The notes beneath the pieces are model-generated. The model had not been told where the DNA came from, searched no databases, and worked only from the letters and a program-made list of their open reading frames with translations. The translations under genes and the position numbers were made by a program. Positions 1 to 62,628 of a stretch of DNA of 64,000 nt are shown piece by piece. The DNA comes from Prostheceraeus crozeri (lineage: Eukaryota; Platyhelminthes; Polycladida; Euryleptidae): contig CAJQUW010016138.1 of the NCBI GenBank assembly GCA_907163375.1, forward strand, positions 351,001 to 415,000. The letters run 5' to 3'. Position 1 is the first letter of the stretch, and each line of letters starts with the position of its first letter.

Positions 1-2898
1 GATTTTTGTTTTATTAAATGTTATAATGTTTTACGAGGTTTTAATGAAGAACAAGGAGAAATGATGAAAGAAATGTTTAATAATTTTTTATATAAAGAGA
101 AAGCCACATCTAGAACAGGAGTAATGTCAAACTGCAAATTTTCTCAATTCAATAAATATTTTGGAGAATGTGTTCAATATTATAGTCCTGCCAATCGTCA
201 TTTAAATCCTAGAGGAATTGAAACGTTTCATAATTATGTTTATTGCAATTATTTTCACGCAGGTTCAACAATTGGTCACTATTGTTTAATTGATAAATCT
301 CATAAATTAAAAGCTATTAGAGAAATTGAAAATAATTTCAAACCCATATATAAAACAGTTACTGATGAAAATCTAACAACACGTCCATATAAAATCATAA
401 CAAAGAAAAAAATTGACTATAGTTCAACATATATTTGGGATCTCGAAACTTTTCCTGATCCTAACTGTTCAACAGCTCATCCTATTCCTTATGCTGTAGG
501 AGCTATTAATTTTAATAAATTTATATGTTGCTTACCGAAACAAAGATTGAAAGAATTAGAAACACGTTTGTTAAGTGATATGATTAAAATTAAACGATCA
601 AAAGATGAAGATGAAATTAAAAAACTTAAAAAACAGATTAATGAGTATAATAATTTAACTGAATTAGAATTTAATAAACTTCAAAATTGTGTGAAAATAT
701 TTACGAGAACTGAGGATGATGAATGTCCGATCGGGGGAAACCCAGAGGACGTATGTCCGATCCATCAATTTTTTAAAACTCTTGGAAAATTTAATTATTC
801 GAGAGTAACTTTAATAGCTCACAATTCATCAGGTTTTGATTCCTATTTTCCGATAAAAGCTAATTTTAAATTATCTAAACCGCCTCTTAAAACTTCAAGA
901 GGAATATTGACTGCTTCATTACAAAATCCTTATACAACTGAATGTGTTAGTAGATACATTCAAAAATCTTTTAGATTTAAAAACAATATGAAAAAAGATT
1001 CACCGTCAGGTAAATTAGCACTTCAAACTATTATAATGAAATGTAGTTATCAACATGTAAAAACAAGTCTTTCTAAATGGTGTGAGAATTTTAAAATTCC
1101 TATGAATGTGTGTAAATTAAATTATGAAATTGGAGACATAACACATGAAAATTATAAAGAAAAAGAAAATGAATGGAGACCATATTTAGTTAACGATATT
1201 CTTTCTTTAGCTTTTTGTATCTACAAATATAATAATGTTATGCGAGATTTAGTTGGTGAAGATATAACTACTAATTTGACATCCTCTGCTTTAACATTTA
1301 ACGGTTGGATGAAAAGCGTACAAAATAACAATATAAATATTCATTCTCATATAGATTTATGGGCTAGAAATTATATTAGAAAATCTGTTAAAGGTGGAAG
1401 AGTTTCAGCAAATATAAGAAAATACATATCGCCATTTTGTAGCATCTTGTTACCAATATTAAAACAGTATTTACCTGGTCGCTCCCCTGGGGGGACTTTG
1501 TTCCTTGGAAGTAATTTAATAGATTTAATGAAACAGTATCGAGATTTAAGAGATAAAACTGAAATTTGTAAGAAAATTTCAAATCAACTACTTGAACAAA
1601 AAAATGAATTTCTAATGGCTTTTGATGCAACATCTTTATATTCATCAGCTATGTATGATGAAAATTCAGAATACCCTAAAGCTGAATCCGCTAGAAAATT
1701 TAGACAAGAAGAAGAGCGGGAAATAGTATATAAATTTAATACTCAAACGTTTAGACCTAAAACTGGAATATTTACAGTTGTGTTTCAATATCCGAATGAT
1801 ATGTTTTTTCAACCAGTTCCTATTAACGATAAAGTTAAAAATCAAAATAATAATTCTCATGTAAAAGTAATCAGGTTTAGAAATGGTATATGTTATGATG
1901 TATTAACTTCTGTAGACATACAAGAAATTGTTAGATGTGGGGGAAAAATCTTACATATTACTGATGGTATAATCTATGAAAAAAATTATCAAGTTTCACC
2001 ATTTCGAAATTATATTGAAAAACTTTTTAATTTGAGAAAAAGATATAAAGCAGAAGGAAATACTGTAGGCGATGAGTTAATTAAATTATTGATGAATTCG
2101 CTATATGGCAAAACTGTGCAAAAAGATATAACCACTAAATATCATTTATGGAATGAGAATACATTGAGAAAAAATTTCACTCAAGAAGTAAAAGATTATG
2201 AAAAATTAAATGATGAACAATATTTAGCGAAAGTAGAAATGGAAGATGATGAATTTCTCAAAACTAATATTGTAAAAGATGGGAAGACGTCATTCATGCC
2301 ATCACACTTAGGTTCTTTTATTCTTTCTCACTCTAGAAGAATCATGAATAACTTTATTTTAGAAATTAATGGTTTCAACGAAAAATACATTCATTATACA
2401 GATACTGATTCAATATACATTTCTAATGAGCTCTTCAATAAATTAGATGCTGCTGGATATGTTGGTGGGGAATTGTGTCAAGGAAAAAATGATTATGGAA
2501 ATGGTGGAATTATTTTTGCAATGTTTATTGCTCCTAAAATAAAATATTGTATTACTGTAGATGAACAAGGGAGACTTAGTGAAAAGAAAACATTCAAAGG
2601 ATCTTCACAAGATAAAGTAAAAGTAGAAGATTTTCTAAAATTATATTCGGGGAAAACATTATCGACTACAGTTAATAAACCATGGAAAAGATCTTTAGAA
2701 ACTGGAATTAGTATTCCTGATAAAAATAATAATACTGAAGAAAAAAAATTTTCTGGTCAAATAAATATTCTTAAACGTCAAGCACCTGATGAAAATGAAA
2801 TTATGTTACCTTATAACGGAGAAGATATTCAAGCTGAAATATTTCAAACAATCGTCTGTGAGAGTAATTTAAGTGATGATGATGACACGTGGGAATAA
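1..2898 (+). CDS. polB: Type-B DNA polymerase, protein-primed-like (PolB1), 5' partial
   Basis: Replicative DNA polymerase of element E1. The frame is open from base 1, so the Met at 61 need not be the start and the gene runs off the left edge. Counting from that Met: exonuclease motif I WDLETF (D127, E129), Exo II AHNSSGFDSY (about 255-262), Exo III YLVND (D379), palm motif A FDATSLYSSAM (D522), motif B NSLYGKT (about 679-685) and motif C YTDTDSIYI (D781, D783). All catalytic acidic residues are present and no stop interrupts it. It is convergent with gene X (63 bases apart). It is not the polymerase type carried by E2, although the neighbouring genes match. Two GC-rich hairpin inserts lie in its frame (724-762 and 1483-1504). 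Confidence 0.9.
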   Translation, partial: DFCFIKCYNVLRGFNEEQGEMMKEMFNNFLYKEKATSRTGVMSNCKFSQFNKYFGECVQYYSPANRHLNPRGIETFHNYVYCNYFHAGSTIGHYCLIDKSHKLKAIREIENNFKPIYKTVTDENLTTRPYKIITKKKIDYSSTYIWDLETFPDPNCSTAHPIPYAVGAINFNKFICCLPKQRLKELETRLLSDMIKIKRSKDEDEIKKLKKQINEYNNLTELEFNKLQNCVKIFTRTEDDECPIGGNPEDVCPIHQFFKTLGKFNYSRVTLIAHNSSGFDSYFPIKANFKLSKPPLKTSRGILTASLQNPYTTECVSRYIQKSFRFKNNMKKDSPSGKLALQTIIMKCSYQHVKTSLSKWCENFKIPMNVCKLNYEIGDITHENYKEKENEWRPYLVNDILSLAFCIYKYNNVMRDLVGEDITTNLTSSALTFNGWMKSVQNNNINIHSHIDLWARNYIRKSVKGGRVSANIRKYISPFCSILLPILKQYLPGRSPGGTLFLGSNLIDLMKQYRDLRDKTEICKKISNQLLEQKNEFLMAFDATSLYSSAMYDENSEYPKAESARKFRQEEEREIVYKFNTQTFRPKTGIFTVVFQYPNDMFFQPVPINDKVKNQNNNSHVKVIRFRNGICYDVLTSVDIQEIVRCGGKILHITDGIIYEKNYQVSPFRNYIEKLFNLRKRYKAEGNTVGDELIKLLMNSLYGKTVQKDITTKYHLWNENTLRKNFTQEVKDYEKLNDEQYLAKVEMEDDEFLKTNIVKDGKTSFMPSHLGSFILSHSRRIMNNFILEINGFNEKYIHYTDTDSIYISNELFNKLDAAGYVGGELCQGKNDYGNGGIIFAMFIAPKIKYCITVDEQGRLSEKKTFKGSSQDKVKVEDFLKLYSGKTLSTTVNKPWKRSLETGISIPDKNNNTEEKKFSGQINILKRQAPDENEIMLPYNGEDIQAEIFQTIVCESNLSDDDDTWE
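724..762. repeat. In-frame GC-rich hairpin insert with 9-bp direct repeats
   Basis: TGTCCGATC occurs at 724-732 and again at 754-762. Between them lie two short hairpins, GGG-AAA-CCC and GGACGTATGTCC. The added unit is exactly 30 bases (10 codons), so the PolB1 frame is kept and the residues CPI are duplicated. This looks like a small insertion with target-site duplication; a local tandem duplication is the alternative. Confidence 0.6.
1483..1504. repeat. GC-rich hairpin in PolB1 frame
   Basis: TCCCCTGGGGGGA forms a perfect 5-bp stem with loop TGG; the next bases, GGACTTTGTTCC, form a second, imperfect stem. The GC content contrasts sharply with the flanking sequence and the reading frame is kept. 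Same class as the other E1/E2 palindromes. Confidence 0.55.
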
Positions 2899-2960
2899 TA
2901 TTTTTTTATTACATCTAAAATTTTATAACATCTAAAAACTTATTACATATGAAAATATAT

Positions 2961-4442
2961 TTATCGAATATTTTGGTATTTTCTATTAAGTTTTATCATA
3001 TTAAGTTTTATCATATAAAGTTTTATCAAAAGATAATTTAAATTTTTTTCACTAACTATTGATTCTTCATCATCATCATCAATTGATTCTTCATCATCAT
3101 CATAAATTGATTCTTCAAAATCATAAATTACACTTTTTGGTATAGGATGCCATTCCCTGATAGGATACCATTCTCTTATTGGAATATCTAACTCTAAATT
3201 ACATTTATTATTTGATAATAATATAATAGAGAAAAATATTGGTCTTTGATCTCTTTTGGAAAATTTAATAACACCACCATAATCTGAATCACTTTTAGTT
3301 TTTATTAAAGATGATAAAATTTTAAATTGATTAGATGTAAATCCTAATTTAAATTTTGTAGACCCGACACATAGTTGTCTAACAGTATCTTCAACTATAC
3401 CATCATTATTATTTTCAATTGTAAGAAACTGAAATTTAGATAAATTTTGATTATATGTAGTATTAATATCATGTACATCAGTATGAGATATAAATTTTTC
3501 TTCACTTAAATTTTTATAATTACTAATATTTTTGTAATCTTTTTTCCCATTTACACCTTTTTCAGATGTTTCAGAATCATCGTCTATGTTATCATCATCT
3601 ATATTATCATCATCATTATTATTATAAGATTCTCTAAGATCGGGCAAAGCCCTAGAACCTTCGTTTCGTTTATCATTATTAGATTCTTTAAAATTATTAT
3701 TTTTAAAATTATTATGATTATGATTATGGTCATTGTTAATAGTATAAGGTGTAGTCCACATATAAATTTTCTCTTGTTGAGCTAAGCCATTTATATAAGA
3801 TTTTAATAAATTAATATTTAAATTTGAATATAATCCTATATAAGTATCATCATCATATCTTTGCGGCATTTCTAATGTTTCTTGTTTATAAATTGTATCT
3901 CTATAATAAACTTGGCATAATAATTCTTCATTATGTTTTTTACTCTCTATGTGAATGTTATATTGATTTTGATCGTCAACAAATAATCTAAATTTTTCTT
4001 TCGAAAAAGATTTTAATTTTTTAACTAATTCTTTAATATTGATATAATTGATAATTTTAGTTTCTATCCAATCAGTATTACTAATTGGTAATACTGCTCT
4101 AATAAAACCATAAACATTATTATGACCTATTATAACCATATTTTCTTTATTTAATTCCACATAAGCTACATCATTATATTTACTTACTATATCCATAAAT
4201 TTGATAAATGGATCACCTGGAAATAAACAATAATTAGTTTCTATAGAAGGTAAACCTTTAGTCTGTTCTCTAAATATTTCGGCTCGTAATTGAAATAAAA
4301 TATTAACATCTATACATGGATTTGTAATAGTATTATTATTATTATTATCAAAACATTTATTTTCAAATCCCGTTGATCTCGTCGAATAAGAAGAACAGGA
4401 TGATGCGGGCGAATATAATTTTTTTTAATTTGCTTTATCCAT
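2961..4442 (-). pseudogene. Gene X, possible clamp-like polymerase accessory protein; nonsense codon near start
   Basis: Unrecognised protein next to the polymerase in both E1 and E2. The homologous start is the ATG ending at 4442, but codon 6 is TAA (4425-4427) where E2 has a sense codon; a Met at 4196 could still give 411 residues. Two alternating alpha/beta segments (first 200 residues, then about 280-370) are separated by an Asn/Asp-rich low-complexity linker, and the C-terminus is an acidic tail with repeated DDDEES. The second segment resembles the strand-helix-strand pattern of sliding clamps, and the position beside PolB would fit a processivity factor; this is inference. A double hairpin (3642-3668) lies in the linker. 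It is divergently arranged with the fibre-like gene, 47 bases between the starts. Confidence 0.6.
3642..3668. repeat. Double GC-rich hairpin in gene X linker
   Basis: GGGCAAAGCCC is followed two bases later by GAACCTTCGTTTCG, a one-mismatch stem. The same pair occurs in E2 at 59,158-59,183 and, in related form, at 60,167-60,191 in PolB2, showing that the two-hairpin unit is repeated in different genes. Confidence 0.7.
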
Positions 4443-4489
4443 TTTTTTAATTTTTATTGGAAAAAATTTTATTTTTTTATTGTTAAAAA

Positions 4490-5377
4490 ATGATGTTACC
4501 AAATGTTGGTGGAGGTGCATATATCCCGAATAATCGTGAATTAGAAATAGAAATAGAAAATTATATCATGAAAACTGGAGACGTTTTATCTGGTCCATTG
4601 CATCTTTCTATTCTTCCGCAACAAAATACAGAGTTAACAAATAAACAATATGTTGATACACAAATCAATGATTTAAAAGAAAAATATATAAACGATGTTT
4701 TGGTTCCACTGATGAATGAATTAAAGTTGCTAAAACTTAATGACAAATCATTAAACGAAAAATTATTAAAACTTGATAAAAAGGATAGAGAGCTAGAAGC
4801 AGATATAGCAAAACTTTTTAAAAAGATTTCTGAACAATCAAAAATTTTAATATTACTTTCTATAAATTTAAAATCTGCTGTAATTAAAAATAAACATCAG
4901 ATAAAAATGTTAAAAGAACAATTAGAAGATGAAATAGAAAAACTACCTGAAAGAACTAAAAAAAATTTCAAGCAGTTACAAACTACATTCCAAAAAAGTG
5001 TTGATGAATTAAGTTCTAAAATTACTCAACAAATGAAAAAGATGAATAGAATAATATATGAAGTAAACTTACTTAATCAAAGAGTTGATAAAATGAAAAC
5101 TCTTAAAATCAATTTAGAAAATGAATTAAAGAAACATTTACAAGAAAACTCTAAAGAAAATAAAGAACAGTTAGATTCTGTTAAAAGACAATTAGATGTT
5201 CTTAAAATTAAGTTAAATGCACTTAAAACGGCGTTGAAGATTAATCAGCAGAAAATGCAAGTTAATAGAAAAGAAATTAAAGTACATCACACGCTGCTTG
5301 ACGCAATAGATAAAGTGCAACAGTCAATTAATAAAGTTATCTCGACGTTGTTGTCCATTCACAAACGTAAATCTTGA
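4490..5377 (+). CDS. Fibre/spike-like coiled-coil structural protein
   Basis: 295 residues. The first 70 residues contain MKTGDVLSGPLHLS followed by LTNKQYVDTQI, the spacing seen in tail-fibre/adhesin shaft repeats (M-x-GPL-x-L ... KQYVD). From about residue 70 to the end it is a long heptad-rich, Lys/Glu/Leu/Ile-rich coiled coil, so a trimeric fibre is likely. No enzyme motif is seen. The start is the first of two Met codons, in a run of A typical of this element's starts, directly opposite gene X. The E2 copy is nearly identical but is split by the G-rich tract. The fibre role is inferred from motif and coiled coil; partners are unknown. Confidence 0.7.
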   Translation: MMLPNVGGGAYIPNNRELEIEIENYIMKTGDVLSGPLHLSILPQQNTELTNKQYVDTQINDLKEKYINDVLVPLMNELKLLKLNDKSLNEKLLKLDKKDRELEADIAKLFKKISEQSKILILLSINLKSAVIKNKHQIKMLKEQLEDEIEKLPERTKKNFKQLQTTFQKSVDELSSKITQQMKKMNRIIYEVNLLNQRVDKMKTLKINLENELKKHLQENSKENKEQLDSVKRQLDVLKIKLNALKTALKINQQKMQVNRKEIKVHHTLLDAIDKVQQSINKVISTLLSIHKRKS

Positions 5378-5378
5378 T

Positions 5379-5500
5379 CGACGAAGTCTTGGGTTTCTAA
5401 CCTATCGGAGCGAAGCTCCTCGAGGCTTTAGCCGATCGGACCAAACGTCCTCAGGTTACTAACCAATCCTAAACGGAAATCTTAGCGCAAATATTAACGT
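5379..5500. repeat. Intergenic cluster of GC-rich hairpins, absent from E2
   Basis: Perfect or near-perfect stems: GGAGCGAAGCTCC (5407-5419), GGCTTTAGCC (5424-5433) and GGACCAAACGTCC (5438-5450). The cluster is flanked by copies of AAATCTT, and E2 joins the two sides almost directly at the same point. The leading segment with AGTCTTGGG recurs inverted after the capsid gene (about 7536-7572). Confidence 0.7.
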
Positions 5501-5538
5501 AAACATTTTTTCCCAAAATTCAAATTTAATCCTAAAAA

Positions 5539-6072
5539 ATGCCTATAATTTATATACACAATCTTAAACATTTTGCTTCAAATCAAAGAATTGCTCATGA
5601 ACCACGTATGAATCCTGTTTATCATTATGATAATAGAGAAACAGTTCACACGGAAGGAGCTGGCATCTTCTCTGGTATTGGAAGTATCGTTAACTTAATT
5701 AAAAATAATAAAGACTTGATTACATCTGCTGCAAAAGGAGCAGCTGCTATAGGTAGTACAGCTAGTGCAATATCAAATGCTGTCAAGTCTCAAAACGAAT
5801 TAAAACAACTAGAAGCTATTCGTAAACTTAGGAATGATTCCGAAGAACTAAAAAATTTAAAAAAACTTTCAGAGGAAACAAAAAATAAAATTGCTAACAT
5901 AGCTGTGGGGGGTGAAACCTTGAGGAGCGGAGCTCCGTCTGATAGTAAACATAAGAAGAAATCAGGCGTAGCCATAAAACGTTCAATTGAAGAAATAAGA
6001 GGAAATGGCGTGAGCAGCAACCTTCGGTTTAACCAGCAAAGCTGTAGCGGAGCTGGTCTAGCAAAATTCTAA
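5539..6072 (+). CDS. Small Gly/Ala-rich virion-like protein (pVI-like in character)
   Basis: 177 residues. A basic N-terminus (MPIIYIHNLKHF) is followed by a glycine/alanine-rich amphipathic stretch (GAGIFSGIGSIVNLI, then AAKGAAAIGSTASAI) and a charged helical region. This resembles in style the membrane-active internal capsid proteins of adenovirus-like viruses; no sequence-level match is claimed. It lies between the fibre-like and capsid-like genes. Residues around 126-134 come from a 27-base in-frame hairpin insert absent from E2. The C-terminus is also largely palindrome-derived (6019-6056). E2 carries a different in-frame hairpin insert near residue 35. Confidence 0.65.
   Translation: MPIIYIHNLKHFASNQRIAHEPRMNPVYHYDNRETVHTEGAGIFSGIGSIVNLIKNNKDLITSAAKGAAAIGSTASAISNAVKSQNELKQLEAIRKLRNDSEELKNLKKLSEETKNKIANIAVGGETLRSGAPSDSKHKKKSGVAIKRSIEEIRGNGVSSNLRFNQQSCSGAGLAKF
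5914..5940. repeat. 27-base in-frame hairpin insert, E1 only
   Basis: Contains GGAGCGGAGCTCC (5924-5936), a perfect 5-bp stem with a 3-base loop. E2 lacks it: the flanks meet at a shared TGA. The insert adds nine codons and keeps the frame. Confidence 0.75.
6019..6056. repeat. Hairpin cluster at the end of the small Gly/Ala-rich gene
   Basis: AACCTTCGGTT (6019-6029), CAGCAAAGCTG (6034-6044) and an outer CCAGC...GCTGG pair (6033-6056). The same cluster is present in E2 (about 54,041-54,075), so it predates the split of the two copies. Confidence 0.7.
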
Positions 6073-6079
6073 AATTATG

Positions 6080-6170
6080 TTTTTTAGTAAAATTTTTTTT
6101 GGTAAAATTATTTTAGCAAAATTTTCTTAGCAAAATTTTTTTAGTAAAATTATTTTAGCAGAATTTTTTC
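6080..6170. promoter_or_regulatory. AT-rich tandem repeats before the capsid gene
   Basis: About six copies of a unit close to TTTTTTAGCAAAATT precede the capsid start. A matching but differently sized array lies in the same place in E2 (53,930-54,020). A promoter role is inferred only from position. Confidence 0.4.
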
Positions 6171-6211
6171 TGTGTGTGAGAAAAAAAAAAGTCAAATTAT
6201 TTTTTATAAAA

Positions 6212-7546
6212 GTGTCTTCGCTTATCGAAAATAAATTTAGATTAGACGATCCTCCGTTCGTCAGTTACAATCAAAAAAAGAATGACTATATAAGAATTGC
6301 TATGAATCCCGGATCTTCCAGTAGAGTAAATACTGGAGGTGATTTAATTTTTGAAGTTGATAATCAGCAGAGTTATATATATCTACCTGATTCATTTTTA
6401 CACTGTGAATATTCTTTGTATAGTGATGCCAATTTTACAACACCATTACCAGAAACCGATAATATTGCACTAGAGAATAATTTTTTTCCAAGATTATTTA
6501 CACAAATGCGTTTAGATGTTGCAACTCAAAATATAGAAACAATAAGTGATTCTCCAGGTGTAATTGATACAATGCTTAGATTTGTAACAATTGGTGAAAA
6601 TAATAAAAAGTATGAAATCGAAGGTTGGTTTCCTGATACTAATGATTGTATAATTGTTGATGATTTAACTCACGCTGGAACAGATGCAGCAGGAATTGCG
6701 AAAGATGTAGAAAATATTGCAAAACATTTAAATAAAACAAACAATAGTGCATATAAAGAAAAACGTGAATTTAACAAGAAAAGTAAACAGACAGTAAATT
6801 GGTCATTGTCTCCATTATTCGGTTATTTAGATTATGATAAAATATCATACCAATTAAAATTTAAGTTAATAATTCATCGCACAGCAAATAATGAATTAAT
6901 CTTTTTTGGTAAGACTGGAAAAAAAGCATATTTAAAAATTGATAGACTTGAATGGTGGATTAAGCATATTACTCCTAGTTTAGAGATTCAAACAGCTATT
7001 GCAAAAAGATTAAATACTAACAAACCAATTCCAGTAAATTTTCTAAAGCGTACTGCTAGTTCAGTAACTTTTTCCGAACAAAGATTTAACTGGCATTTTA
7101 CTAGAACTGCGAATACTTCAAGATATTTATTACTAACATTTCAAAGAAATAATTCTCCAAGTTTTGATAAGAACAACAATCTTTTTCATATTAATACAAT
7201 TCGAAGTTTACAAGTTTCATTAAATCAAACTCGATATCCAATTGATCCATTAAGATTCGATGATACCAATAATCAATTTATGGAAGGATATGATTCTTAT
7301 AGAAATCTTTGTATAGAATTTGGAGTTGAACCACAATTAACTCCTGGAGATTGGAGACATTTATATCCTGTTTTCTGTTTCGATTTAAGTGCACAATCTG
7401 AAGATATTATCAAGACTGGTTGTGATGTAACAATTAATATTGAAAAGAAAGATTCCACAACTTCATTGATGGCTTATGGTTTATTGCTAGAAGATGTAAA
7501 ATATTCTATTAAAATTCTTAATGGAAAGATGGCTAGGATCGGCTGA
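6212..7546 (+). CDS. Major capsid-like protein, F54H12.2 family
   Basis: 444 codons. It resembles the invertebrate family named after C. elegans F54H12.2, which sits next to the integrase-like F54H12.3 in a Maverick remnant. Features fitting the family: an N-terminal region ending in strand-rich YIYLPDSFLHCEYSLY, then NNFFPRLFTQMRLDV, then WFPDT, with further beta-rich segments to the end. It is likely the structural shell protein; the fold is inferred. E2 starts this protein with ATG, but E1 has GTG at 6212-6214. The frame is open 12 codons further upstream to another GTG (6176), so loss of the ATG may impair this copy. Apart from that it is uninterrupted. Confidence 0.75.
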   Translation: MSSLIENKFRLDDPPFVSYNQKKNDYIRIAMNPGSSSRVNTGGDLIFEVDNQQSYIYLPDSFLHCEYSLYSDANFTTPLPETDNIALENNFFPRLFTQMRLDVATQNIETISDSPGVIDTMLRFVTIGENNKKYEIEGWFPDTNDCIIVDDLTHAGTDAAGIAKDVENIAKHLNKTNNSAYKEKREFNKKSKQTVNWSLSPLFGYLDYDKISYQLKFKLIIHRTANNELIFFGKTGKKAYLKIDRLEWWIKHITPSLEIQTAIAKRLNTNKPIPVNFLKRTASSVTFSEQRFNWHFTRTANTSRYLLLTFQRNNSPSFDKNNNLFHINTIRSLQVSLNQTRYPIDPLRFDDTNNQFMEGYDSYRNLCIEFGVEPQLTPGDWRHLYPVFCFDLSAQSEDIIKTGCDVTINIEKKDSTTSLMAYGLLLEDVKYSIKILNGKMARIG

Positions 7547-7559
7547 AGCCCAAGACTTG

Positions 7560-7712
7560 TCGATTAATTAATTTTTTTTCATAACTAGAATAGATTAAAA
7601 TTTTTTGGTAACTTAAAATTTTTCATAACTGGAATAGATTAAAAATTCTTAACTTAAAATTTTTGATAACTACAATAGATTAAAAATTTTCGTAACTTAA
7701 AATTTTTTTATT
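7560..7712. promoter_or_regulatory. Three tandem AT-rich repeats upstream of the hydrophobic-protein gene
   Basis: Three units of about 47 bases built on ATAACTAGAATAGATTAAAA and AACTTAAAATTTTT. The same array stands before the orthologue in E2 (52,345-52,505). Conservation of position suggests a promoter or replication role, but nothing in the sequence decides this. Confidence 0.45.
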
Positions 7713-7716
7713 AAAA

Positions 7717-8199
7717 ATGTCGCAAGCGAAAAGTAATAATAATAAAAATGTTGAATTAAAATTACGTAATATTGTTGACAAAAATACCCCTAAAACTATT
7801 ACGATTAACAAAAAAAAGTATTACATAAGTAAACCAATGATAGAGAATATTCAATTACAAGAAGAAAAGAATGGCGGGATTCTCCCATTAATTCCTCTAA
7901 TAATAGGTGGCATAGCAGCAGCAGGAAGTGTTGCAGGTGGGACAGCTGGTATTGTACAAGCAGTAAATAAAAATAAATCAGAGAAGGCAGCGTTAGAAGA
8001 ACAAAAAGGTCATAATAGAGAGTTAGAGAAAGTTGCTAGGGGCATGGAGTAGTAGATAATTTTATTAGTAAATTAAAATTAGTTGATGAAGGAAAACGAG
8101 TTCTTAAAAATATTCTCCACAATGTTGATGATTTAATTGAAATTAAAGGAACTAAAGATGGTTCTGGAATATATCTAAGTCCTAGTATGATTCGGTAAT
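7717..8199 (+). pseudogene. Small hydrophobic Gly-rich protein, frameshifted in E1
   Basis: The reading frame gives 111 residues and stops at 8052; E2 has 161. A one-base loss near 8041-8050 relative to E2 introduces tandem TAG stops, and the conserved C-terminal coding (to 8199) continues in another frame. The protein has a basic N-terminus, a hydrophobic segment GGILPLIPLIIGGIAAAGSV (about residues 52-71), then the charged helix EEQKGHNRELEK. It lies between capsid and PLA2-integrase and is probably a minor virion or membrane protein; no enzyme motif is seen. Confidence 0.65.
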
Positions 8200-8206
8200 A
8201 ACCTCA

Positions 8207-8219
8207 GGACCTTTGGTCC
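8207..8219. repeat. Hairpin GGACC-TTT-GGTCC
   Basis: Perfect 5-bp stem with TTT loop in the gap between the hydrophobic-protein gene and PLA2-integrase. At the equivalent place E2 has AGAACCAAAGGTTCT (51,836-51,850): same position and class, different stem sequence. Confidence 0.65.
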
Positions 8220-8268
8220 ATAAGGTAAAACATTTATTTTATCTTTAAAATTTTTTTTATCTTTAAAA

Positions 8269-9606: not shown

Positions 9607-9643
9607 TTATCATTATTATTATTATTATTGGAACTAACGTTTC

Positions 9644-9689
9644 GGGAATGAAATTCCCTTGTTAGGCGTAGCCATAGAACCTACGGTTC
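9644..9689. repeat. Hairpin cluster at protease C-terminus, E1 only
   Basis: GGGAATGAAATTCCC (9644-9658), GGCGTAGCC (9665-9673) and GAACCTACGGTTC (9677-9689). The last one overlaps the protease stop codon and sets its final residues; E2 ends differently. Confidence 0.7.
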
Positions 9690-10135: not shown

Positions 10136-10141
10136 TTTAAA

Positions 10142-52344: not shown

Positions 52345-52505
52345 TTTAATAAAAAAATTTTAAGTTATCAAAAATTTAAATCTATTCTAGTTATGAAAAA
52401 ATTTTAAGTTAAGAATTTTTTTAATCTATTCTAGTTATGAAAAAATTTTTAAGTTAAGAATTTTTAAGTTAACAAAAATTTTAATCTATTCTTGTTATGA
52501 AAAAA
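52345..52505. promoter_or_regulatory. AT-rich tandem array, counterpart of 7560-7712
   Basis: Three units with CTATTCTAGTTATGAAAAAATTTTAAGTTAAG on the plus strand. Conserved between elements upstream of the hydrophobic-protein gene. Confidence 0.45.
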
Positions 52506-52532
52506 ATTAATTAATCGACTAAGTCTTGGGCT

Positions 52533-53868: not shown

Positions 53869-54019
53869 TTTTATAAAAAATAATTTGACTTTTTGTTTTT
53901 CTCACACACAGAAAAAATTCTGCTAAAATAATTTTACTTAAATAATTTTACTAAAAAAAATTTTACTAAAAAATTTTACTAAAAAAATTTTACTAAAAAA
54001 AATTTTACTAAAAAATATA

Positions 54020-54544
54020 TTTTAGAATTTTGCTAGACCAGCTCCGCTACAGCTTTGCTGGTTAAACCGAAGGTTGCTACTCACGCCATTTCCTCTTATT
54101 TCTTCAATTGTTTTTTTCATTATGTTTACTATCACCCTCTACAGCTATGTTAGCAATTTTATTTTTTGTTTCATCTGAAAGTTTTTTTAATTTTTTTAGT
54201 TCTTCAGAATCATTCCTAAGTTTACGAATAGCTTCTAGTTGTTTTAATTCGTTTTGAGACTTAACAGCATTTGATATTGCACTAGCTGTACTACCTATAG
54301 CAGCTGCTCCTTTTGCAGCAGATGTAATCAAATCTTTATTATTTTTAATTAAGTTAACGATACTACCAATACCAGAAAAGATGCCATCTCCTTCTTTTTG
54401 GACGGCACCTGCGGTGCCTAGGAACTTTTGTGTTCCGACAGTTTCTACACTATCATAATGGTACACAGGTTTCATAGATGGTTCATGAGCAATTTTATTA
54501 TTTGATGCAAAATGTTTAAGATTGTGTTTATAAATTATAGGCAT
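54020..54544 (-). pseudogene. Small Gly/Ala-rich virion-like protein, C-terminus shifted
   Basis: The ORF from 54,544 to 54,104 gives 146 residues. It matches E1 through the GIFSGIGSIVNLI and Ala-rich part, then leaves the E1 frame after a stretch that differs by a non-multiple of three; the conserved end coding (54,020-54,103) is out of frame. Near residue 35 it has an in-frame 36-base net gain of hairpin sequence (54,404-54,436) that E1 lacks. Confidence 0.65.
54404..54436. repeat. In-frame double hairpin, E2 only
   Basis: GGCACCTGCGGTGCC (54,404-54,418; 6-bp stem, 3-base loop) and GGAACTTTTGTGTTCC (54,421-54,436; 5-bp stem). E1 lacks both; the net length difference is a multiple of three. 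Confidence 0.75.
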
Positions 54545-54586
54545 TTTTTAGGATTAAATTTGACTTTTGGGAAAAATATCTACGTG

Positions 54587-55741
54587 TTAAGATTTACGTT
54601 TGTGAATGGACAACAACTTCGAGATAACTTTATTAATTGCCTGTTGCACTTTATCTATTGCGTCAAGCAGTGTGTGATGTACTTTAATTTCTTTTCTATT
54701 AACTTGCATTTTCTCCTGATTCATCTTCAACGCCGTTTTAAGAGCATTTAACTTAACTTTAAGAACATCTAATTGTTTATAAGGGGGGGGGGATGTGCGG
54801 GGGGGGTTGGGGGGGGGTGAGTGGGGGAGCTATGGCTGTGATGTGGGGTATTGGGTGCTTGGATGATGGGGGGGGGGAGGGGGGAATCGGGTTGTGGGGG
54901 TGGGGGGGGAGGGGATTATGGGGGGGGTAAGAGAGGTGTTGGGACGGTTCGTAAGGGGGGTGATTTGTAGGATGGGGAGTGGTTGGGGGGGGGGCCTTGT
55001 GATAAGCGATGGGGGTGGGGATGGGGGGTGGGGGGGGGGGTGGGGAGGGGGGGTGGGGGGGGGGTGGGGTGGTGGTTGGGGTGGGTGGGGGCGTGGGTTG
55101 GGGGGGGGGTGGGGGGGTGGGGGTGGGGGGGTGGGGTGGGGGGGGGGGGTGGGGTGGGGGGGTGGGGTGGGGTGGTGGTGGGGGGGGGAGTGGTGGGGTT
55201 GGGTGGTGTTGGGGTGGTGGTGTGAGGGGGGTTGTGGGGGGTGGGAGGCGAGGTAGGGTTGTTGGGTGGGGGGGGGTTTGGGGGGTGGGGGTGGGGAGGG
55301 GGGGGTTACGCGGGGGCGTGGGGGGCGGGGGGGGGGGGGGGGGGATGTGGGGGGGGGGCCGGTGGTCCGTGGGGGAGGGGTGGTTGGGGGGGGGGGTGGG
55401 GGTGTATTTTCGTGGAGGGGGGGGCGTTTGGGGGGGGGGGGGGGGGGTTTGTGGGGGGGGGGTGTTGCAGGGGGGGGGGGGGGGGTGGGAGGTGGGAGTG
55501 GGGGGGGGGTGGGGTCGGTGGGGGTCTAAGGGGTGGGGGGGGGGGGTGGGTCGTAGATGGGGCGGTGGGCATGGGTAGGGGGGGGTTGGGGGTGTGAGGG
55601 TGGGGGGGTTGGTAGGGGGGTAGTCTTGTGGGGGGTGGGTCGGGGGGGGGGGGGGGGGGGGGGGGTGGTTGGAGCGGGGGGGGGGGGTGGCAGGAGGGGT
55701 GGTGGGGTGCGGGGGGGTGGGGGGGTTGGGGGAGGGGGTGG

Positions 55742-55775
<34 letters not shown>

Positions 55776-58358
55776 GGGGTGGGGGGTGAGAGAGGTGGGG
55801 GTGTGGGCGGCCGGGGGTAGGGTGGCGGGGGCAGGATCCGGGGGTTCGGTGGGGGGGGGGGGGGCTTGGGGGGGGTTGGGGGAGGGGTGGGGGGGGGGGG
55901 GTGCGGGGTGGGGGGGGGGGTGATAGAATGGGCGGGGGGGGAAGTGGGGGGGGGGGGGGGGGGGATGGTTCGGGGGGGGGGGTGGGGGGCCGGGTCGGTG
56001 GAGGCGTCGGGCGGCGGGGGGGGTGGGGGGGGGGGCAGTCCCCCCGGGGGTGGGTGGGGGGGGGGGGTGGCTTGGGGTGGGGGTGGGAAGGGGAGGGGGG
56101 GGGGGTGGGGGGTTGGGCGGGCGTGGGGTGGGGGGGGGGGGGCGCGGTGGGGTTGGGGGTGGCGGGGGGGGGGGGGGGGGGGGGGGGAGGGTGGGGGGTG
56201 GGGGTGTGGTTGGGAGGGTGGTCGGGGGGGGATTGGGGGGGGGGGTGGCCGGGGGGGGGGGGCGTGGGGGGGGGGGCGGGGCTTGGGGGGAGCAGTCGGT
56301 TGGGTGGGGAGATTGGGGGGTGGGGGTGTGGGGGGAGGGGGGGGGGGGGGAGGAAAAGGGGTGGGCTGGGGGGGGGGGGGGGGGTGGGTGGAAGGGGTTT
56401 GGCTGGGGGTGGGGGGGTGGTCGTAGGGGTATAGTGGGGGAGGGGGTGGGGGGTAGGGTGCGGGGGGGCTTGTCTGGGGGGGGGGGGGGGGGGGGGGGGG
56501 CGGGGGTTGGGGGGGGGGTTGTGGGGGTGGGGGGGGGTAGGGGGTGAGGGGGGGGGGGTGGGGGCAAGTGTGGGCGGGGGTGCAGAGGTAGGAAACGGGG
56601 GGGCGGAGGGGGGGGGCTGGGGGTCGCTGAGGCGGGGTCGGGGGGGGTGGGAGGGGGGGGGGTGGGGGGAGGTCGGCGGGGGCGGGGGGGGGGGTGGGGG
56701 GGGAGGGTTTGGGGGGGGGGAGGGGGGGGGGCGCGGGTGGGCCGGGTAGATAATGGGGGGGAAGCTGAGGGGGGGGGATGGTTGGGTTAGGCGGGGGGGC
56801 GGGGGGGGGGCGGGGGGGGGGGGGTGGGCGGGGGGGGGGGGAGGGTGGGGGGGGTGGGCGGGGGGGGGGGGGGTGGGGGGCAGGGGGGGGGGGGGATGGG
56901 GTGGTTGGGCAGGGATGTGGTTTGGTTGGTTGTGGTTTGGTGGGCTTAGTGGGGGTGGGGGGCGGGGCGGGGGAGGTGGAGGCGGGGCGTGGGGGTGTGT
57001 CATGGCGAGGGGAGGGGGAAAGGTGGGGACGGTGTGGGTGGGGTGGGGGGGGGTGGGGTGGGAGGGGCCGAGGGGGGTGCGGGGGGGTGGCGCGGGTTCG
57101 AGGGGTGGGGAGGGGGGGTCGGGGGGCGGGGTGGGGGGGAGGGAGGGGGGACGGAGGGTAGGGGTGGGGTTCGTGGGGGGTTGGGAGGGGGGGGGGGTGG
57201 TGGAGCTGGGAAGCTGGGGTTGAGGGGCTGTGGTGGTGGGGTGCGGGGGGGCGTGAGGGGCGGGGGGGCTTCGGGTGGGGGGGGTTGTTTGGGTGGGGTT
57301 GGTGGGGGGTGAGGTGCGGGGGGGGGAGGGGGGGGAGGGGGGGGGGGTGGGTGGTTGGGGGTTTGGTGTGGGGGTGGGGGTGGGGTGTAGGGGTGGGTGG
57401 GGTTGGGCGTGGTGGGGGGTTTGGTTTGGGTGGGGGGGGGGGTGGGTTGGAGTGGGGTTGGGAGGGGTTGGGGTGGGGGGGGTGGGGGGGTTGGGGGGTG
57501 GGGGGGGGGGGTGGGTGGTGGGGTTTGGGGGGGGGTTGGGGGGGTGGGGGGGGTGGGAGGGGTGGGTGTGGGGTGTGGGGGGGTTGGTGGGAGGGGGTGA
57601 TGATATCGTGGGGGGGGTGAGGGGGGTTGGTAAGAGTAGTTTGGTGTAGTGAGGGGTCTGGTGGGGGGGGAATCTAACTGTTCTTTATTTTCTTTAGAGT
57701 TTTCTTGTAAATTTTTCTTTAATTCATTTTCTAAATTGATTTTAAGAGTTTTCATTTTATCAACTTTTTGATTAAGTGAGTTTACTTCATTTATTATTCT
57801 ATTCATCTTTTTCATTTGTTGAGTAATTTTAGAACTTAATTCATCAACACTTTTTTGGAATGTAGTTTGTAACTGCTTTAAATTTTTTTTAATTCTTTCA
57901 GGTAGTTTTTCTATTTCATCTTCTAATTGTTCTTTCAATATTTGTATCTGATGTTTATTTTTAATTACAGCAGATTTTAACTTTATAGAAAGTAATATTA
58001 AAATTTTTGATTGTTCTGAAATCTTTTTAAAAAGTTTTGCTATATCTGCTTCTAGCTCTCTATCCTTTTTATCAAGTTTTAATAATTTTTCGTTTAATGA
58101 TTTGTCATTAAGTTTTAGCAACTTTAATTCATTCATCAGTGGAACCAAAACATCGTTTATATATTTTTCCTTTAAATCATTGATTTGTGTATCAACATAT
58201 TGTTTATTTGTTAACTCTGTATTTTGTTGCGGAAGAATAGAAAGATGTAATGGACCAGATAAAACGTCTCCAGTTTTCATGATATAATTTTCTATCTCTA
58301 TTTCTAATTCACGATTATTCGGGATATATGCACCTCCACCAACATTTGGTAACATCAT
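54587..58358 (-). pseudogene. Fibre/spike-like coiled-coil gene split by G-rich tract
   Basis: The 5' part (58,358 to about 57,675) matches the E1 fibre-like protein from its first Met through the coiled coil; the 3' part (54,780-54,587) matches its end, with stop at 54,587-54,589. Between them lies the 2.9-kb G/T tract, replacing about ten bases of the E1 sequence. The frame runs on into the tract with an artificial Pro-rich translation. If the tract is artefactual, the gene may be whole. Confidence 0.75.
54781..57675. repeat. 2.9-kb G-rich (G/T) low-complexity tract
   Basis: Plus strand is almost only G with interspersed T and few A or C, in runs of 3 to over 20 G. No periodic unit was found. 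Both edges are abrupt, inside a conserved coding sequence. Either an artefact (poly-G calls, mis-filled gap) or an extreme G-quadruplex-prone expansion. All long ORFs here are composition shadows. Confidence 0.85.
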
Positions 58359-58432
58359 TTTTTAACAATAAAAAAATAAAATTTTTTCTAATAAAAATAA
58401 AAAAATAAAATTTTTTCTAATAAAAATAAAAA

Positions 58433-59726
58433 ATGGAAAATCCAAATTTAAAAAAATTATATTCGCCCGCATCATCCTGTTCTTCTTATTCGACGAGATC
58501 AACGGGATTTGAAAATAAATGTTTTGATAATAATAATAATAATAATCCATGTATAGATGTTAATATTTTATTTCTATTACAAGCCGAAATATTTAGAGAA
58601 CAGACTAAAGGTTTACCTTCTATAGAAACTAATTATTGTTTATTTCCGGGGATCCATTTATTAAATTTATGGATATTGTTAGTAAATATAATGATGTAGC
58701 TTATGTGGAATTAAATAAAGAAAATATGGTTATAATAGGTCATAATAATGTTTATGGATTTATTAGAGCAGTTTTACCGATTAGTAATACTGATTGGATA
58801 GAAACTAAAATTATTAATTATATCAATATTAAAGAATTAGTTAAAAAATTAAAATCTTTTTCGAAAGAAAAAATTAGATTATTTGTTGACGATCAAAATC
58901 AATATAACATTCACATAGAGAGTAAAAAACATAATGAAGAATTATTATGTCAAGTTTATTATAGAGACACAATTTATAAACAAGAAACATTAGAAATGCC
59001 GCAAAGATATGATGATGATACGTATATAGGATTATATTCCAACTTAAATATTAATTTATTAAAATCTTATATAAATGGTTTAGCTCAACAAGAGAAAATT
59101 TATATGTGGACAACACCTTATACTATTAACAATGACCATAATCATATCATAATAAACGAACCGAAGGTTCTAGGGCTTTGCCCGATCTTAAAGAATCTTA
59201 TGATAATAATGATGATTCTGTAACATCTGAAAAAGGTGTAAATGGTAAAAAAGATTATAAAAATATTAGTAATTATAAAAATTTATCTAAATTTCATTTT
59301 CTTACAATTGAAAATAATAATGATGGTATAGTTGAAGATACTGTTAGACAACTATGTGTCGGGTCTACAAAATTTAAATTAGGATTTACATCTAATCAAT
59401 TTAAAATTTTATCATCTTTAATAAAAACTAAAAGTGATTCAGATTATGGTGGTGTTATTAAATTTTCCAAAAGAGATCAAAGACCAATATTTTTCTCTAT
59501 TATATTATTATCAGATAAAAGATGTAATTTAGAGTTAGATATTCCAATAAGAGAATGGTATCCTATCATGGAAGGGCATCCTATACCAAAAAGTGTAATT
59601 TATGATGATGAAGAAACAATTTATGATGATGATGAAGAAACAATTTATGATGATGATGATGAATCAATAGTTAGTGAAAAAAAATTTAAATTATCTTTTG
59701 ATAAAACATTATATGATGAAACTTAA
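58433..59726 (+). pseudogene. Gene X, possible clamp-like accessory protein, frameshifted
   Basis: Starts with an ATG and lacks the codon-6 stop of E1, but one base is missing near 58,650 relative to E1 (TTTCCGGGGATCC against TTTCCAGGTGATCC) and the frame changes again near 59,150, beside the double hairpin. The pieces are 58,433-58,699, 58,636-59,223 and 59,178-59,726. The C-terminal acidic repeats are DDDEET instead of DDDEES. Tandem with PolB2, 186 bases apart, whereas in E1 X is convergent with PolB1. Confidence 0.65.
59158..59183. repeat. Double GC-rich hairpin in gene X
   Basis: GAACCGAAGGTTC (59,158-59,170) and GGGCTTTGCCC (59,173-59,183). Same unit as E1 3642-3668, in the same gene position. 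The gene X frame changes beside it. Confidence 0.75.
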
Positions 59727-60166
59727 TAAGATAAAACTTAATATGATAAAACTTAATATGATAAAACTTAATGTGATAAAGAAAAAAATAACTAAAGAAC
59801 GTGAAATATATAATAATATAAAATAACACTCAAGTCCTTGATATTAGAATGTTTATATCTAAAATTAAAACACAAATTTTTTTCTTAAATTTTCTCTAAA
59901 AAAATAAAAAAAATGGAAAATACCAAGTTTTATTGTGTCTTATGTAAAAAAAAGTTGCAAACAAAAAGAAGTTATCAATCTCATTTAAATAGTAAATTGC
60001 ATTTACAAAATGTAGAACGAGTTGATGAAGGAAATATATTAAAATTAAATAGTTATAAAAACTATCTAGAAACATTGCCTACTGATATAAAAGTTAAAAA
60101 AATGTTTGATGATTATTCACATTCGGAATATAAAAAAGTTTTTAATAGTGAAGATGAGACCATACA

Positions 60167-60191
60167 AACCGAAGGTTCTAGGGCTTCGCCC
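60167..60191. repeat. Double hairpin in PolB2, in frame
   Basis: AACCGAAGGTT (60,167-60,177) and GGGCTTCGCCC (60,181-60,191), separated by CTA. It is the same unit as in gene X, in an unrelated gene. Frame kept. Confidence 0.75.
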
Positions 60192-61809
60192 GTACCAGAT
60201 GGAAGATATTTATTTAGCGATACTGATGAATTTGATGAAGCTGAACGAACCGATGAAGCCTTAGCAAATATAAAATATTTATTTAATCAGTCTTTTGAAT
60301 ATAATGAAACCGATAAAACTTTTTCTGATATTCTAACCAACTTTTATAATATATTTAAGAAATCTTTCAAATGTTATATGAATGTAGAAGTACTTTATAC
60401 AAAAAATGGACCTGATGGAATTCCTGAAGAAATAATACAAGGACATTTTACAAATTCACAAGAAATTCATAATGTAAATGATATACAACCCATATTTGAA
60501 TCGATGATACTTAAATTAGAAAATTGTATAATTGAAGCCCAGTTACGTGAATCTGGTTGGAGATTTGTTAAAATACTATCTAAGAAAATAGTAATTGATA
60601 AATATAAAAATAATACTGGTGGTAGTTATGTTCCTTTACCTTTCAGTTCACCACAATTAATCAACATAAAAAATGAAGATGATTATTGTTTTCTGTGGAG
60701 TATTATAGCACATTTACATCCTGCAGAATATCATAAAGAAAGACTAAGTCATTATAATAAAGAAGAATACATAAATGAATTTGATCTTTCTGATGGCTTA
60801 GATGAATTTCCATATGATTATAATAGGTTAATAAAGTTTCATAAAAAGAATAAAAATTTAATAGAAGTAAATGTTTTTGAATTAAATGTGAATTATGTTT
60901 CTATTGGTAAAATTATTCCACTTTACTCAGATTCAAAAAAATTTTATTTGAATAATAAAAATTTATGTCAATCAGAAATAGTATATAATGATAGAGGAAA
61001 TTACATGCATCATAATATTTTTTACCAAGGAAATATAATATGTACTGAAAAATTTGAACTTGTTAAAACACTATCACCAATAATGATTAATCATAATAAT
61101 TATAAAGGACGTACTGATGATTATAATTACAAATATTCATCTTTATCTTCAGAATATCAACAAAAATTAGAAAATTTAAATAAAAGTTTACAAAAATGTA
61201 AAATAGATTATCAACAACAAACAAAAATGTTACTACAAGAATATCACCATAAATATCAAAATAAGATAGAAACAATTCAAAAATTAAATGAAGAAAATAA
61301 TAAAGAATTAAATAATGAAGAAAATAAAGAATTAAATGAATGTTTAAAAAAATGTCTACAACAATATAAAGAACAATATGATAAAGAATATATTTATCAG
61401 CTACAAATATTAAATCAAAATTATCATCAAAATACATTTAATATTACAAAAGAAATTAATGAAACACATGAAATATATAAAGATGAATTTGTAAAATTAG
61501 AACAGTCAAAACAACCAGCACAAGCGAATATATTATATTATCAGGGACATTTTATATTGTGTAAAGATGTTTCTATATTTACAAAAACTTCAGATAATAA
61601 AAATTTTCCTTGTCTTCAATGTATGACAAGTTTTAGAACTTTAGAAGAAATGAATAGACATTTGGAGAATTGTCAACAAAACGAAGCAGTTCAAAATACT
61701 TTTCCTAAAGATGATTATTTAGAATATAATAAATGGTATTTTAAAAATAAAGTACCCTTTACTATTTATTGTGATTTTGAAGCATATAATGTTAATATGA
61801 CACAAAATC

Positions 61810-61879
61810 GAACGGAAAGTTCCAGGGCTTCACCCGATTCTGAAAATTATAATTCTGAAAAGTCCTAGAACCTTCGGTT
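61810..61879. repeat. Hairpins around the PolB2 stop
   Basis: GAACGGAAAGTTC (61,810-61,822), GGGCTTCACCC (61,825-61,835) and AACCTTCGGTT (61,869-61,879). The TAG that ends the frame (61,866-61,868) is the usual CTAG- linker of this hairpin unit; the frame beyond it stays open in phase. Confidence 0.7.
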
Positions 61880-62608
61880 AATTAAAAGTGCACCTGGAAA
61901 AAGTTCAGCTGAACAAAGTAAAGAAAAATATTTATTTGAACAAAAACCATTATGTTGGGGAATGTACATTCATTCAAATTATCCTGAATTATTTAAATCA
62001 GAATATTTACAATACTATGGTGAAGATAGTTCAGAAATGTTTACAAAGAAAGTAGAAGAATTACAAGGACGTTTTTCACAATTGCTTGAAACAAATATAC
62101 CAATGATACCATTAACGGATGAAGAAAGAAAAGAATTTTATGATGAAATAAATTGTTATTACTGTGGAAAAGGTTTTACAAATAAATATAAAACTGGCAG
62201 AGGTAGATATATTGATAAAGTAAAAGATCATGATCATCTAAATGGATTATATAGAGGTGCAGCACATAATTCTTGTAATCTTAATGCTAATAAATTTAAA
62301 TATAACTTTGTTCCTTTATATTTCTACAATGGTTCTAAATATGATTTCCATCTAGTAATGAAAGATTTATTTTCATCTGAAAAATTACAACAACAACAAA
62401 TAAATGTACTATGTAAAACAGAAGAAGAATATTTTTCAATGCAATTAGGTTGCATTAGAATTTTAGATGCATTTAGATTTTTTACTCCTTATTCATTAGA
62501 TGTTATGGGAAAAACTTTGAAATCTGAACAATGTAAAATATTAAATAAATATAATTTAAAACCTTTAAAAGGCATATTTCCGTATGAATATTTAACTGGA
62601 GATAAAAC

Positions 62609-62628
62609 CTGTGTTCACAGTCGAAGAC
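62609..62628. repeat. Hairpins at the PolB2 frameshift
   Basis: CTGTGTTCACAG (62,609-62,620) and GTCGAAGAC (62,620-62,628). The PolB2 frame changes exactly across this patch, consistent with an insertion that was not a multiple of three. Confidence 0.65.

Follow-up and report, generated by a model that had tools for sequence, protein, structure and literature searches.

Small paired hairpins at variable sites in an integrated adintovirus/Polinton-like element of the polyclad flatworm Prostheceraeus crozeri

The window analysed here, a 64,000-nt stretch of contig CAJQUW010016138.1 from the polyclad flatworm Prostheceraeus crozeri (positions 351,001 to 415,000 of the contig), carries at its two ends oppositely oriented copies, E1 and E2, of one adintovirus/Polinton-like element of about 17-21 kb, and our analysis concerns the small GC-rich hairpins scattered through both, which are probably mobile. 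E1 (1-10150, forward strand) is a partial copy recognised by Pfam matches (PF03175, PF21738, PF00665 and PF08398) and by the E1/E2 alignment, and it carries PolB1, gene X, a coiled-coil gene, a minor protein, the capsid protein, a small protein with a sub-threshold Adeno_PX match, a PLA2-integrase and a protease candidate. E2 (47325-64000, reverse strand) is the second, inverted copy, which begins with a terminal repeat at about 47325, runs to the window end, has a broken PolB2 and contains a G-rich stretch inside its coiled-coil gene. The two copies were aligned in eight pieces, of which the protease end is 78% identical and the other seven are 92-97% identical.

The element resembles adintoviruses and Polintons in its length, its terminal repeats and its gene set, which comprises a family B DNA polymerase (PF03175 in PolB1, E 1.3e-30, and in the PolB2 piece, 3.2e-13), a retrovirus-like rve integrase fused to a PLA2-like domain (PF00665, E 8.2e-10), a double-jelly-roll major capsid protein (MCP; PF21738, E 6.5e-18) and an A32-like ATPase. 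The A32/FtsK-like packaging ATPase was seen in locus L011 (PF04665 Pox_A32 at 3.5e-05, barely over the cut-off; PHROG terminase family at 1.9e-08), and none was detected by Pfam and PHROGs among the open reading frames (ORFs) of the window. An adenovirus-type protease candidate lies at 9684-10109 and 50035-50490, for which Pfam and PDB gave no match. The left end of locus L020 matched the reversed right end of L017 at 85% over 449 nt, indicating terminal inverted repeats, and in the seven contigs measured the end units were oppositely oriented and 17.0-21.0 kb apart. In the genome assembly (2.05 Gb, 14,165 contigs) the capsid gene is present in at least 101 copies, that of E1 included, which are 97-100% identical, a lower bound since 101 were scored out of 17,396 first-look candidates. 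No internal stop was present in 99 of the 101 scored copies, which suggests that the element expanded recently.

Hairpin counts were compared with 100 dinucleotide shuffles of each element copy and 20 shuffles of the 37.8 kb between them. Hairpins with a 3-base loop (triloop), a stem of at least 4 bp and at least 4 G/C in the arm numbered 6 in E1 against 0.06 expected and 3 in E2 against 0.10, and with at least 3 G/C the counts were 11 against 1.2 and 9 against 1.0, respectively. Since 4-base-loop hairpins with at least 4 G/C numbered 0 in E1 and 0 in E2, the excess is specific to a loop length of 3. The DNA between the elements showed a mild excess (19 against 16 with at least 3 G/C; 6 against 2.5, shuffle maximum 5, with at least 4). 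Tandem triloop pairs of at least 8 bp and at least 6 GC overall occurred five times in E1 and twice in E2 (expected 0.00) and 0 times between the elements (expected 0.15). A preliminary description of this DNA, made from the letters alone, had reported GC-rich mini-palindromes in E1 and E2 and asked whether shuffled sequence would contain as many; the palindromes are real, far in excess of shuffled sequence, built on 3-base loops and paired.

The unit consists of two adjacent stem-loops with stems of 3-6 bp, mostly 3-base loops, C-G closing pairs and a spacer of 1-4 nt; its ends are often C on one side and G on the other, and the commonest core is 28 nt. Across 133.5 kb of element DNA (20 pieces) we counted 169 triloop hairpins and 51 pairs, in comparison to 36 hairpins and no pair in 69.9 kb of host flank DNA with higher GC (11 pieces), and in element DNA 3-base loops stood at 169 against 18 4-base loops. 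Among 158 G/C-closed element hairpins the closing pair was C..G in 149 and G..C in 9 (p=8e-34), versus 14 and 13 of 27 in host flanks (p=1.0); most element pieces in this count were picked for their hairpin content, E1 and E2 were not, and these two alone gave 17 C..G and 0 G..C. Distinct hairpins were closed C..G or G..C in a ratio of 30 : 5, and the 30 C-G-closed ones, read on the strand with the purine-rich loop, had the loops AAA (11), GNA (10) and AGA (3).

Fifteen hairpin sites were compared across E1, E2 and 20 further loci. The preliminary description had named beforehand, as the finding that would contradict mobility, palindromes at the same sites in all family members; in our comparison 10 of the 15 sites (S3, S4, S5, S6, S7, S10, S11, S13, S14 and S16) had empty as well as filled alleles, in genes for polymerase, integrase, protease and others. 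The hairpin sites listed below, E2 counterparts aside, are on the forward strand except the protease insert and unit D, which are on the reverse strand.

Unit A lies in gene X of E1 at 3641-3668 (GGGC-AAA-GCCC TA GAACC-TTC-GTTTC, one stem being broken in this copy) and in gene X of E2 at 59157-59184 (GAACC-GAA-GGTTC TA GGGC-TTT-GCCC), and at the gene X site S3 the unit was missing from 3 of 11 sequences (L010, L018, L027). The same unit forms a 30-nt insert with a TA repeat in PolB2 (S14, 60163-60192), which reads QTEGSRASPV, is absent from the relative P0047 and gave allele lengths of 14, 44 or 53 nt in seven sequences. Two unit-A-like stretches follow at S15 (61809-61836 and 61863-61880), absent from P0047 and P0048, with lengths of 96-147 nt, every one a multiple of 3, in seven sequences; these two relatives are thus without the PolB2 inserts that they span. 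The recurrence of one two-hairpin unit in gene X and PolB2, noticed earlier, was confirmed at 3641, 59157 and 60163, with the unit-A-like form at 61809. At S16 (62618-62630), a hairpin CAGTC-GAA-GACTG lies at a frameshift of PolB2 and a 30-nt unit is present 0, 1 or 2 times per copy, giving 12, 42 or 72 nt in six loci and 41 nt in E2 itself. In PolB1, site S2 (1470-1511) varied in 30-nt steps, with lengths of 41, 71 or 101 nt in four copies. The PolB1 insert S1 (724-756), composed of GGG-GAAA-CCC and GGAC-GTAT-GTCC with the 10-bp repeat ATGTCCGATC, had been described as an addition of 30 bases; its absence from 8 of 8 relatives spanning it favours an insertion (it is present in P0034), but it was filled in all four genome copies, has 4-base loops and adds 11 residues over relatives in the alignment.

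In the minor protein, the 27-nt insert S6 (5911-5940; GGT-GAA-ACC / GGAGC-GGA-GCTCC, 3-bp repeat TGA) corresponds to an E1/E2 difference at 5913-5939 where E2 is empty, and unit D (S5, 54404-54436; GGCACC-TGC-GGTGCC / GGAAC-TTTTGT-GTTCC) to a 36-nt insert, E2 54406-54441, where E1 is empty. Both had been described as specific to one copy, which holds between E1 and E2 but not in the family: among 20 capsid-anchored copies S6 was filled in 20 and unit D was filled in 15 and empty in 5. Minor-protein alleles measured 15 or 51 nt, and a triple hairpin in the same gene (S7, 6019-6054; AACC-TTC-GGTT, CAGC-AAA-GCTG, AGC-GGA-GCT) was missing or shortened in 5 of the 20. Between S6 and S7, at 5964-5976, lies the half-unit AGGCGTAGCCATA, whose 13 bases recur identically at 9664-9676. 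The intergenic array S4 (5379-5465) is made up of three units, one of 25 nt and two of 29 nt, with AT between them, and the E1/E2 difference there is 118 nt (5379-5496); in 22 sequences unit order and number varied, with lengths of 26 to 174 nt and a separator of AT or, in some copies, AA. In the integrase linker, unit E (S10, 8783-8813; C GACAGC-AAA-GCTGTC TGA GAGC-AAC-GCTC G) was empty in 3 of 7 sequences, with a net E1/E2 difference of 18 nt at 8783-8800, a 33-nt insert with an AA repeat in L017, and alleles of 22, 40, 55 and 94 nt. The E1/E2 differences first reported for these places hold, with lengths of 27, net 18, 118 and 36 nt.

A 39-nt insert in the PLA2-integrase (S11, 8386-8424), containing CAAAC-AAA-GTTTG, was empty in 2 of 6 sequences (E2 and L019). 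The 33-nt protease insert (S13, 9961-9989; GGAAC-TGAAG-GTTCC, first hairpin degenerate in E1) was empty in 2 of 9 sequences (L016, L028), with alleles of 5 or 38 nt, and its E2 counterpart at 50176-50208 keeps both hairpins. At the cluster between integrase and protease (S12, 9644-9689; GGGAAT-GAA-ATTCCC, GGC-GTA-GCC, GAACC-TAC-GGTTC), E2 and seven other loci have a different 62-nt segment. Hairpins were also exchanged in place. The hairpin S9 at 8207-8219 (GGACC-TTT-GGTCC) has as its E2 counterpart AGAACC-AAA-GGTTCT at 51836-51850, with both stem sides changed; one hairpin of a pair, of GAACC type or GACATC type, was swapped while its partner was kept at four sites (S14, S15, near the terminal repeat in L016 versus L037, and L011-5942); and the loop at one site was TCT, GGA or TGA. 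The insert peptides searched for were found in 0 of 88 database proteins fetched, which were mostly other genes or distant.

Genome-wide, the 28-nt unit CGGGCNNNGCCCTAGAACCNNNGGTTCG has 5,072 exact copies (reversed control 0), GACATCNGAGATGTC has 4,920 (reversed control 4) and GAACCTTCGGTTC has 7,588 (reversed control 19), the last count coming from the genome-wide search proposed in the preliminary description. The sampled places, which were the first listed contigs and no random draw, lay inside copies of the E1/E2-type element for 59 of 59 occurrences of GAACCTTCGGTTC and 19 of 20 of the GACATC-type GACATCNGAGATGTC, 78 of 79 overall; the twentieth place (L082) is a lone palindrome in other DNA without a partner hairpin, and L049, which was not selected for a match, was omitted from these counts. 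Whether host DNA also contains the units had been raised earlier, and these figures, together with the lack of pairs in the host flanks, indicate that in the places sampled the units are apparently restricted to a single viral lineage. In 84,980 bacterial and archaeal genomes a 17-nt part of the unit gave five chance-like matches, none continuing into the second hairpin. Unit patterns searched in viral contigs gave 0, 1 and 0 stretches, the one being a GC-rich stretch, and the loop orientation of the first pattern occurs in no unit, whereas the second pattern had the correct one. Related loci in viral contigs were found neither by MCP nor by PolB1, and PolB2 identified two distant ones (27-32% identity) with 4 and 8 triloop hairpins, within their shuffles (2.4, maximum 7; 3.2, maximum 9); one of these (L003) gave 8 pairs under a looser rule, from tandem CATCG-CCC-CGATG.

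The commonest gain was 30 nt, which made up 84 of the 125 events between 20 and 45 nt long and 53 of the 99 between 15 and 60 nt, and a typical 30-nt insert consists of a 28-nt core and a 2-bp target repeat, as where GAGAATTACA|ATTTTC became gaattaca[ATCGGGCGAAGCCCTAGAACCTTCGGTTCG]attttc. Other insert families measured 24, 27, 31, 33, 36 and 39 nt. In the strict form, a 2-bp repeat with a C...G core, the repeated bases in 13 clusters were AT (7), AA (2), TT (2), TA (1) and AC (1). Gaps that could be slid by exactly 2-3 bases made up 59 of 99 hairpin gaps versus 61 of 301 other gaps, and the argument from target repeats rests mainly on the named sites.

Multiples of three accounted for 75 of 87 hairpin inserts versus 129 of 212 other gaps. 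After 12 inserts lying behind a stop or ahead of a start had been moved by hand to the non-coding class (fiber 4, MCP 2, MEET 5, one upstream of minor), the counts were 62 of 62 in coding and 31 of 37 in non-coding DNA, these being copies and not independent events, and inserts of 31, 38 and 59 nt were in this set found outside genes only. Selection on frame is visible here, and the in-frame excess reported in the preliminary description exists; most of it is nevertheless built in because 28 + 2 = 30, and since the commonest unit thus measures 30 nt with its target repeat, inserts in non-coding DNA are mostly multiples of three as well. Looser filters gave exceptions of 20 nt in the minor gene (GGC-GTA-GCC), 29 nt in PolB2 of E2, 73 nt next to a reading of 72 nt in L017 and 50 for 51 nt in L092, and of the coding rows L010 3997 has a stop beside the unit and L011 5942 a stop at the gene end. 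Unit-A- and unit-C-like inserts in genes share one reading frame at nine sites, reading (Q/R)TEGSRASPV or -PI at three PolB2 sites, RTEGSKTKSD in the integrase, NEGSRALPD in X, together with ESSRASPD, EMSSRASPE, EMSTRASPD and ADGSRTKS; other frames were seen as GTGQALEPSV at one site and as the stop-bearing frame at the gene end in L011:5942. Insertions can break genes as well: PolB2 of E2 has an in-frame TAG within a unit (61866-61868) and a frameshift beside the unit at 62618, and the E2 minor protein is truncated by a 20-nt E1/E2 difference.

Site polymorphism, the occurrence of one unit in either orientation and in genes unrelated to each other, short repeats that match the target, confinement where sampled and hairpin exchange are direct observations, and we consider it likely that the hairpins are tiny, apparently non-autonomous mobile units within one integrated adintovirus/Polinton-like lineage that move as DNA. 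This supports the interpretation given in the preliminary description. DNA mini-hairpins with GNA loops and G-C stems are reported to be extraordinarily heat-stable and nuclease-resistant (PMC4686876). The stable GNA loops, the rarity of 4-base loops, the confinement to PolB-bearing DNA and the repeats of about 2 bp lead us to think that movement takes place as DNA during viral genome replication. Strand displacement by the carrier's PolB, which we take to be of the protein-primed kind, would expose single strands on which C-GNA-G and C-AAA-G mini-hairpins could fold at once and withstand nucleases. A hairpin piece copied from one place might then be captured elsewhere at a staggered break of about 2 nt, as the repeats of about 2 bp suggest, and selection would retain inserts in tolerant linkers that read without stops. 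Each event would add 30 bp, a 28-nt core plus a target repeat of about 2 bp, leaving the reading frame unshifted. Turnover is surely increased by template switching and conversion as well. More tentatively, and with the odds against it, the unit could be a self-spreading DNA of about 28 nt that needs no enzyme of its own, whose information is its fold (two very stable C-GNA-G/C-AAA-G mini-hairpins able to persist on single strands during viral replication) and which is captured at 2-nt staggered breaks; it would then be a parasite of one virus lineage whose lengths are tuned to multiples of three for colonising genes, and might rank with the smallest mobile elements that have a target repeat.

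Homologous exchange among copies, by template switching and gene conversion and without transposition to new sites, offers another account of the variation, one that we regard as possible but doubtful. The swapping of single hairpins at the four sites above, the reshuffled S4 arrays and the changing loop at one site are what it would produce, and it accounts for turnover at existing sites, but leaves unexplained how units first came to non-homologous sites with repeats matching the target. Polymorphism might also reflect loss from old hairpins, since a hairpin with flanking short direct repeats is a classical deletion hotspot and slippage between direct repeats of 2-3 bp deletes precisely, with no movement at present. 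Some alleles do resemble partial losses, such as those of -5 and 13 versus 43 nt at S7; the relatives outside this genome are, however, empty at the PolB1 and PolB2 inserts, the repeated bases vary by site, and the identical 28-nt unit stands at several unrelated sites in both orientations, which requires copying. Loss is thus a very improbable explanation of the whole pattern.

A dedicated enzyme, whether the element's rve integrase, a host transposase or a homing-type nuclease, could move the units as its minimal substrate, and a fixed cut is indeed what the constant core length with its frequent C...G ends suggests; in yeast mitochondria, GC clusters are thought to move as DNA (PMC2800124). 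Pfam and PHROGs searches of the element ORFs gave no candidate besides rve, and the repeated dinucleotides (AT, AA, TT, TA, AC) vary, unlike the fixed TA target of Tc1/mariner, so we hold such an enzyme to be rather unlikely. That the hairpins are instead immobile and act as signals at the RNA level, as terminators or in mRNA stability, or serve as functional cis sites appears quite improbable. The unit is strongly conserved against diverged flanks in terminal repeats, and several units sit at gene ends or between genes, as such a role would predict; yet many lie within open frames, no Rfam family reached threshold anywhere in the window, and the element's loops are overwhelmingly of 3 rather than 4 bases. 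In 26 terminal-repeat copies the unit half not used for locus choice differed by 0.55% and the flanks by 12% and 23%, the latter figure being inflated because the left flanks come from different tandem contexts, and the units are accordingly either younger than their surroundings, homogenised or under constraint.

Several results, including this inflated flank divergence, weigh against mobility as DNA. Some units (S2, S10, S16) were clearly multiplied by tandem duplication, the PolB1 insert at 724 has 4-base loops, and the argument from nuclease resistance covers part of the units only, since AAA loops (11 of 30) outnumber GNA loops (10 of 30). DNA folding of 10 units gave modest z-scores of -0.75 to -3.86. 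The rve integrase was the one recombinase seen in the element ORFs that were examined; no enzyme was identified, nor was movement itself observed. Loci L009-L068, except L049, were selected from the first contigs listed via a hairpin match, and the 20 capsid-anchored copies (L089-L108) were the ones selected independently of hairpins. A gap slidable by at least 2 bases was present in 35 of 53 hairpin clusters versus 23% of random segments (p=1.6e-11), but was equally common in other gaps (71 of 106 clusters; 195 of 301 gaps, 75 of these by at least 8 bases, which marks tandem repeats), and the strict form occurred at similar rates in hairpin clusters (13 of 55) and other gaps (18 of 106); neither test tells hairpin gaps from other gaps. 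The repeat was absent at 10 of 53 hairpin clusters, and the fuzzy clustering double-counts a few sites.

Mobile palindromic units of very small size have been described in bacteria and mitochondria, and the way in which they move is still debated. Rickettsia palindromic elements (RPEs), with which the palindromes had been compared from the start, are bacterial units of about 100-150 bp that insert in-frame into protein genes. They vary between close relatives, 10 being absent from compared species (PMC2694212). The parallel holds in behaviour, as the units here are palindromic, scattered, variable among close copies and in-frame in coding genes, but not in membership: the carrier is a viral element in a 2.05 Gb animal genome and not in Rickettsiales, and the units are mostly 24-39 bp, below RPE-type length, with a double hairpin, 3-base loops and a target repeat of about 2 bp. 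Fungal and sponge mitochondrial double-hairpin elements (DHE) and repetitive hairpin-forming elements (RHE) are similar in being repetitive single or double hairpins that invade genomes and sometimes coding regions; those of fungi are reported not to be removed from transcripts, and those of Allomyces are reported without flanking duplications (PMC2800124). Unlike the organelle genomes that house these, the carrier here is a nuclear element with viral genes, embedded in other DNA within long contigs. Short repeats were seen at most sites (35 of 53 slidable by at least 2), a property that other gaps share (71 of 106). The units thus behave like RPEs and mitochondrial double-hairpin elements and belong to neither. 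The yeast GC clusters, which reside in another genome, are alike in being GC-rich. REPINs and other small dispersed bacterial repeats are comparable as tiny, non-autonomous, hairpin-forming sequences, but REPINs are extragenic and depend on an association with RAYT transposases (PMC3116915), whereas the present units also lie in genes; no RAYT (HUH) transposase was found among the element ORFs run against Pfam, and no genome search was aimed at HUH proteins. In Ixodes ticks, adintoviruses are reported to have integrated extensively (PMC10675110), and the portions of the Polinton, adintovirus and Maverick literature consulted contained no recognisable description of internal double-hairpin units.

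With thousands of copies in an abundant element and with empty and filled sites within one genome, gain, loss, target repeats, exchange and the effect on proteins become measurable, and mobility of the units would mean that proteins of eukaryotic DNA viruses have a further, new source of in-frame variation.

The polymerase genes of the two copies are deeply diverged, PolB1 of E1 (1-2898) lying on the strand opposite to X and PolB2 of E2 (59889-64000) on the same strand as X; as the compared loci split between PolB1 and PolB2, members of the lineage must have swapped their polymerase module. The E2 coiled-coil gene is split at 54780-57680 by about 2.9 kb of nearly pure G/T-rich low-complexity sequence where E1 is continuous, which looks like a sequencing or assembly artefact. 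Adjoining the E1 end, a tandem repeat of about 118 bp was seen by eye in five to six copies at 10200-10800. Small proteins near the element end (10812-11495, 48267-48935 and L015:3779-4661) look alike by eye, have no Pfam match and gave one weak PHROG, function unassigned; they are possible variable cargo. Beside an element end in L021, a second integrase (2796-3626) is only 36% identical to that of E1 and represents another Polinton-like family in the same genome; the 3.9 kb examined there contained a single triloop hairpin, closed G-C.

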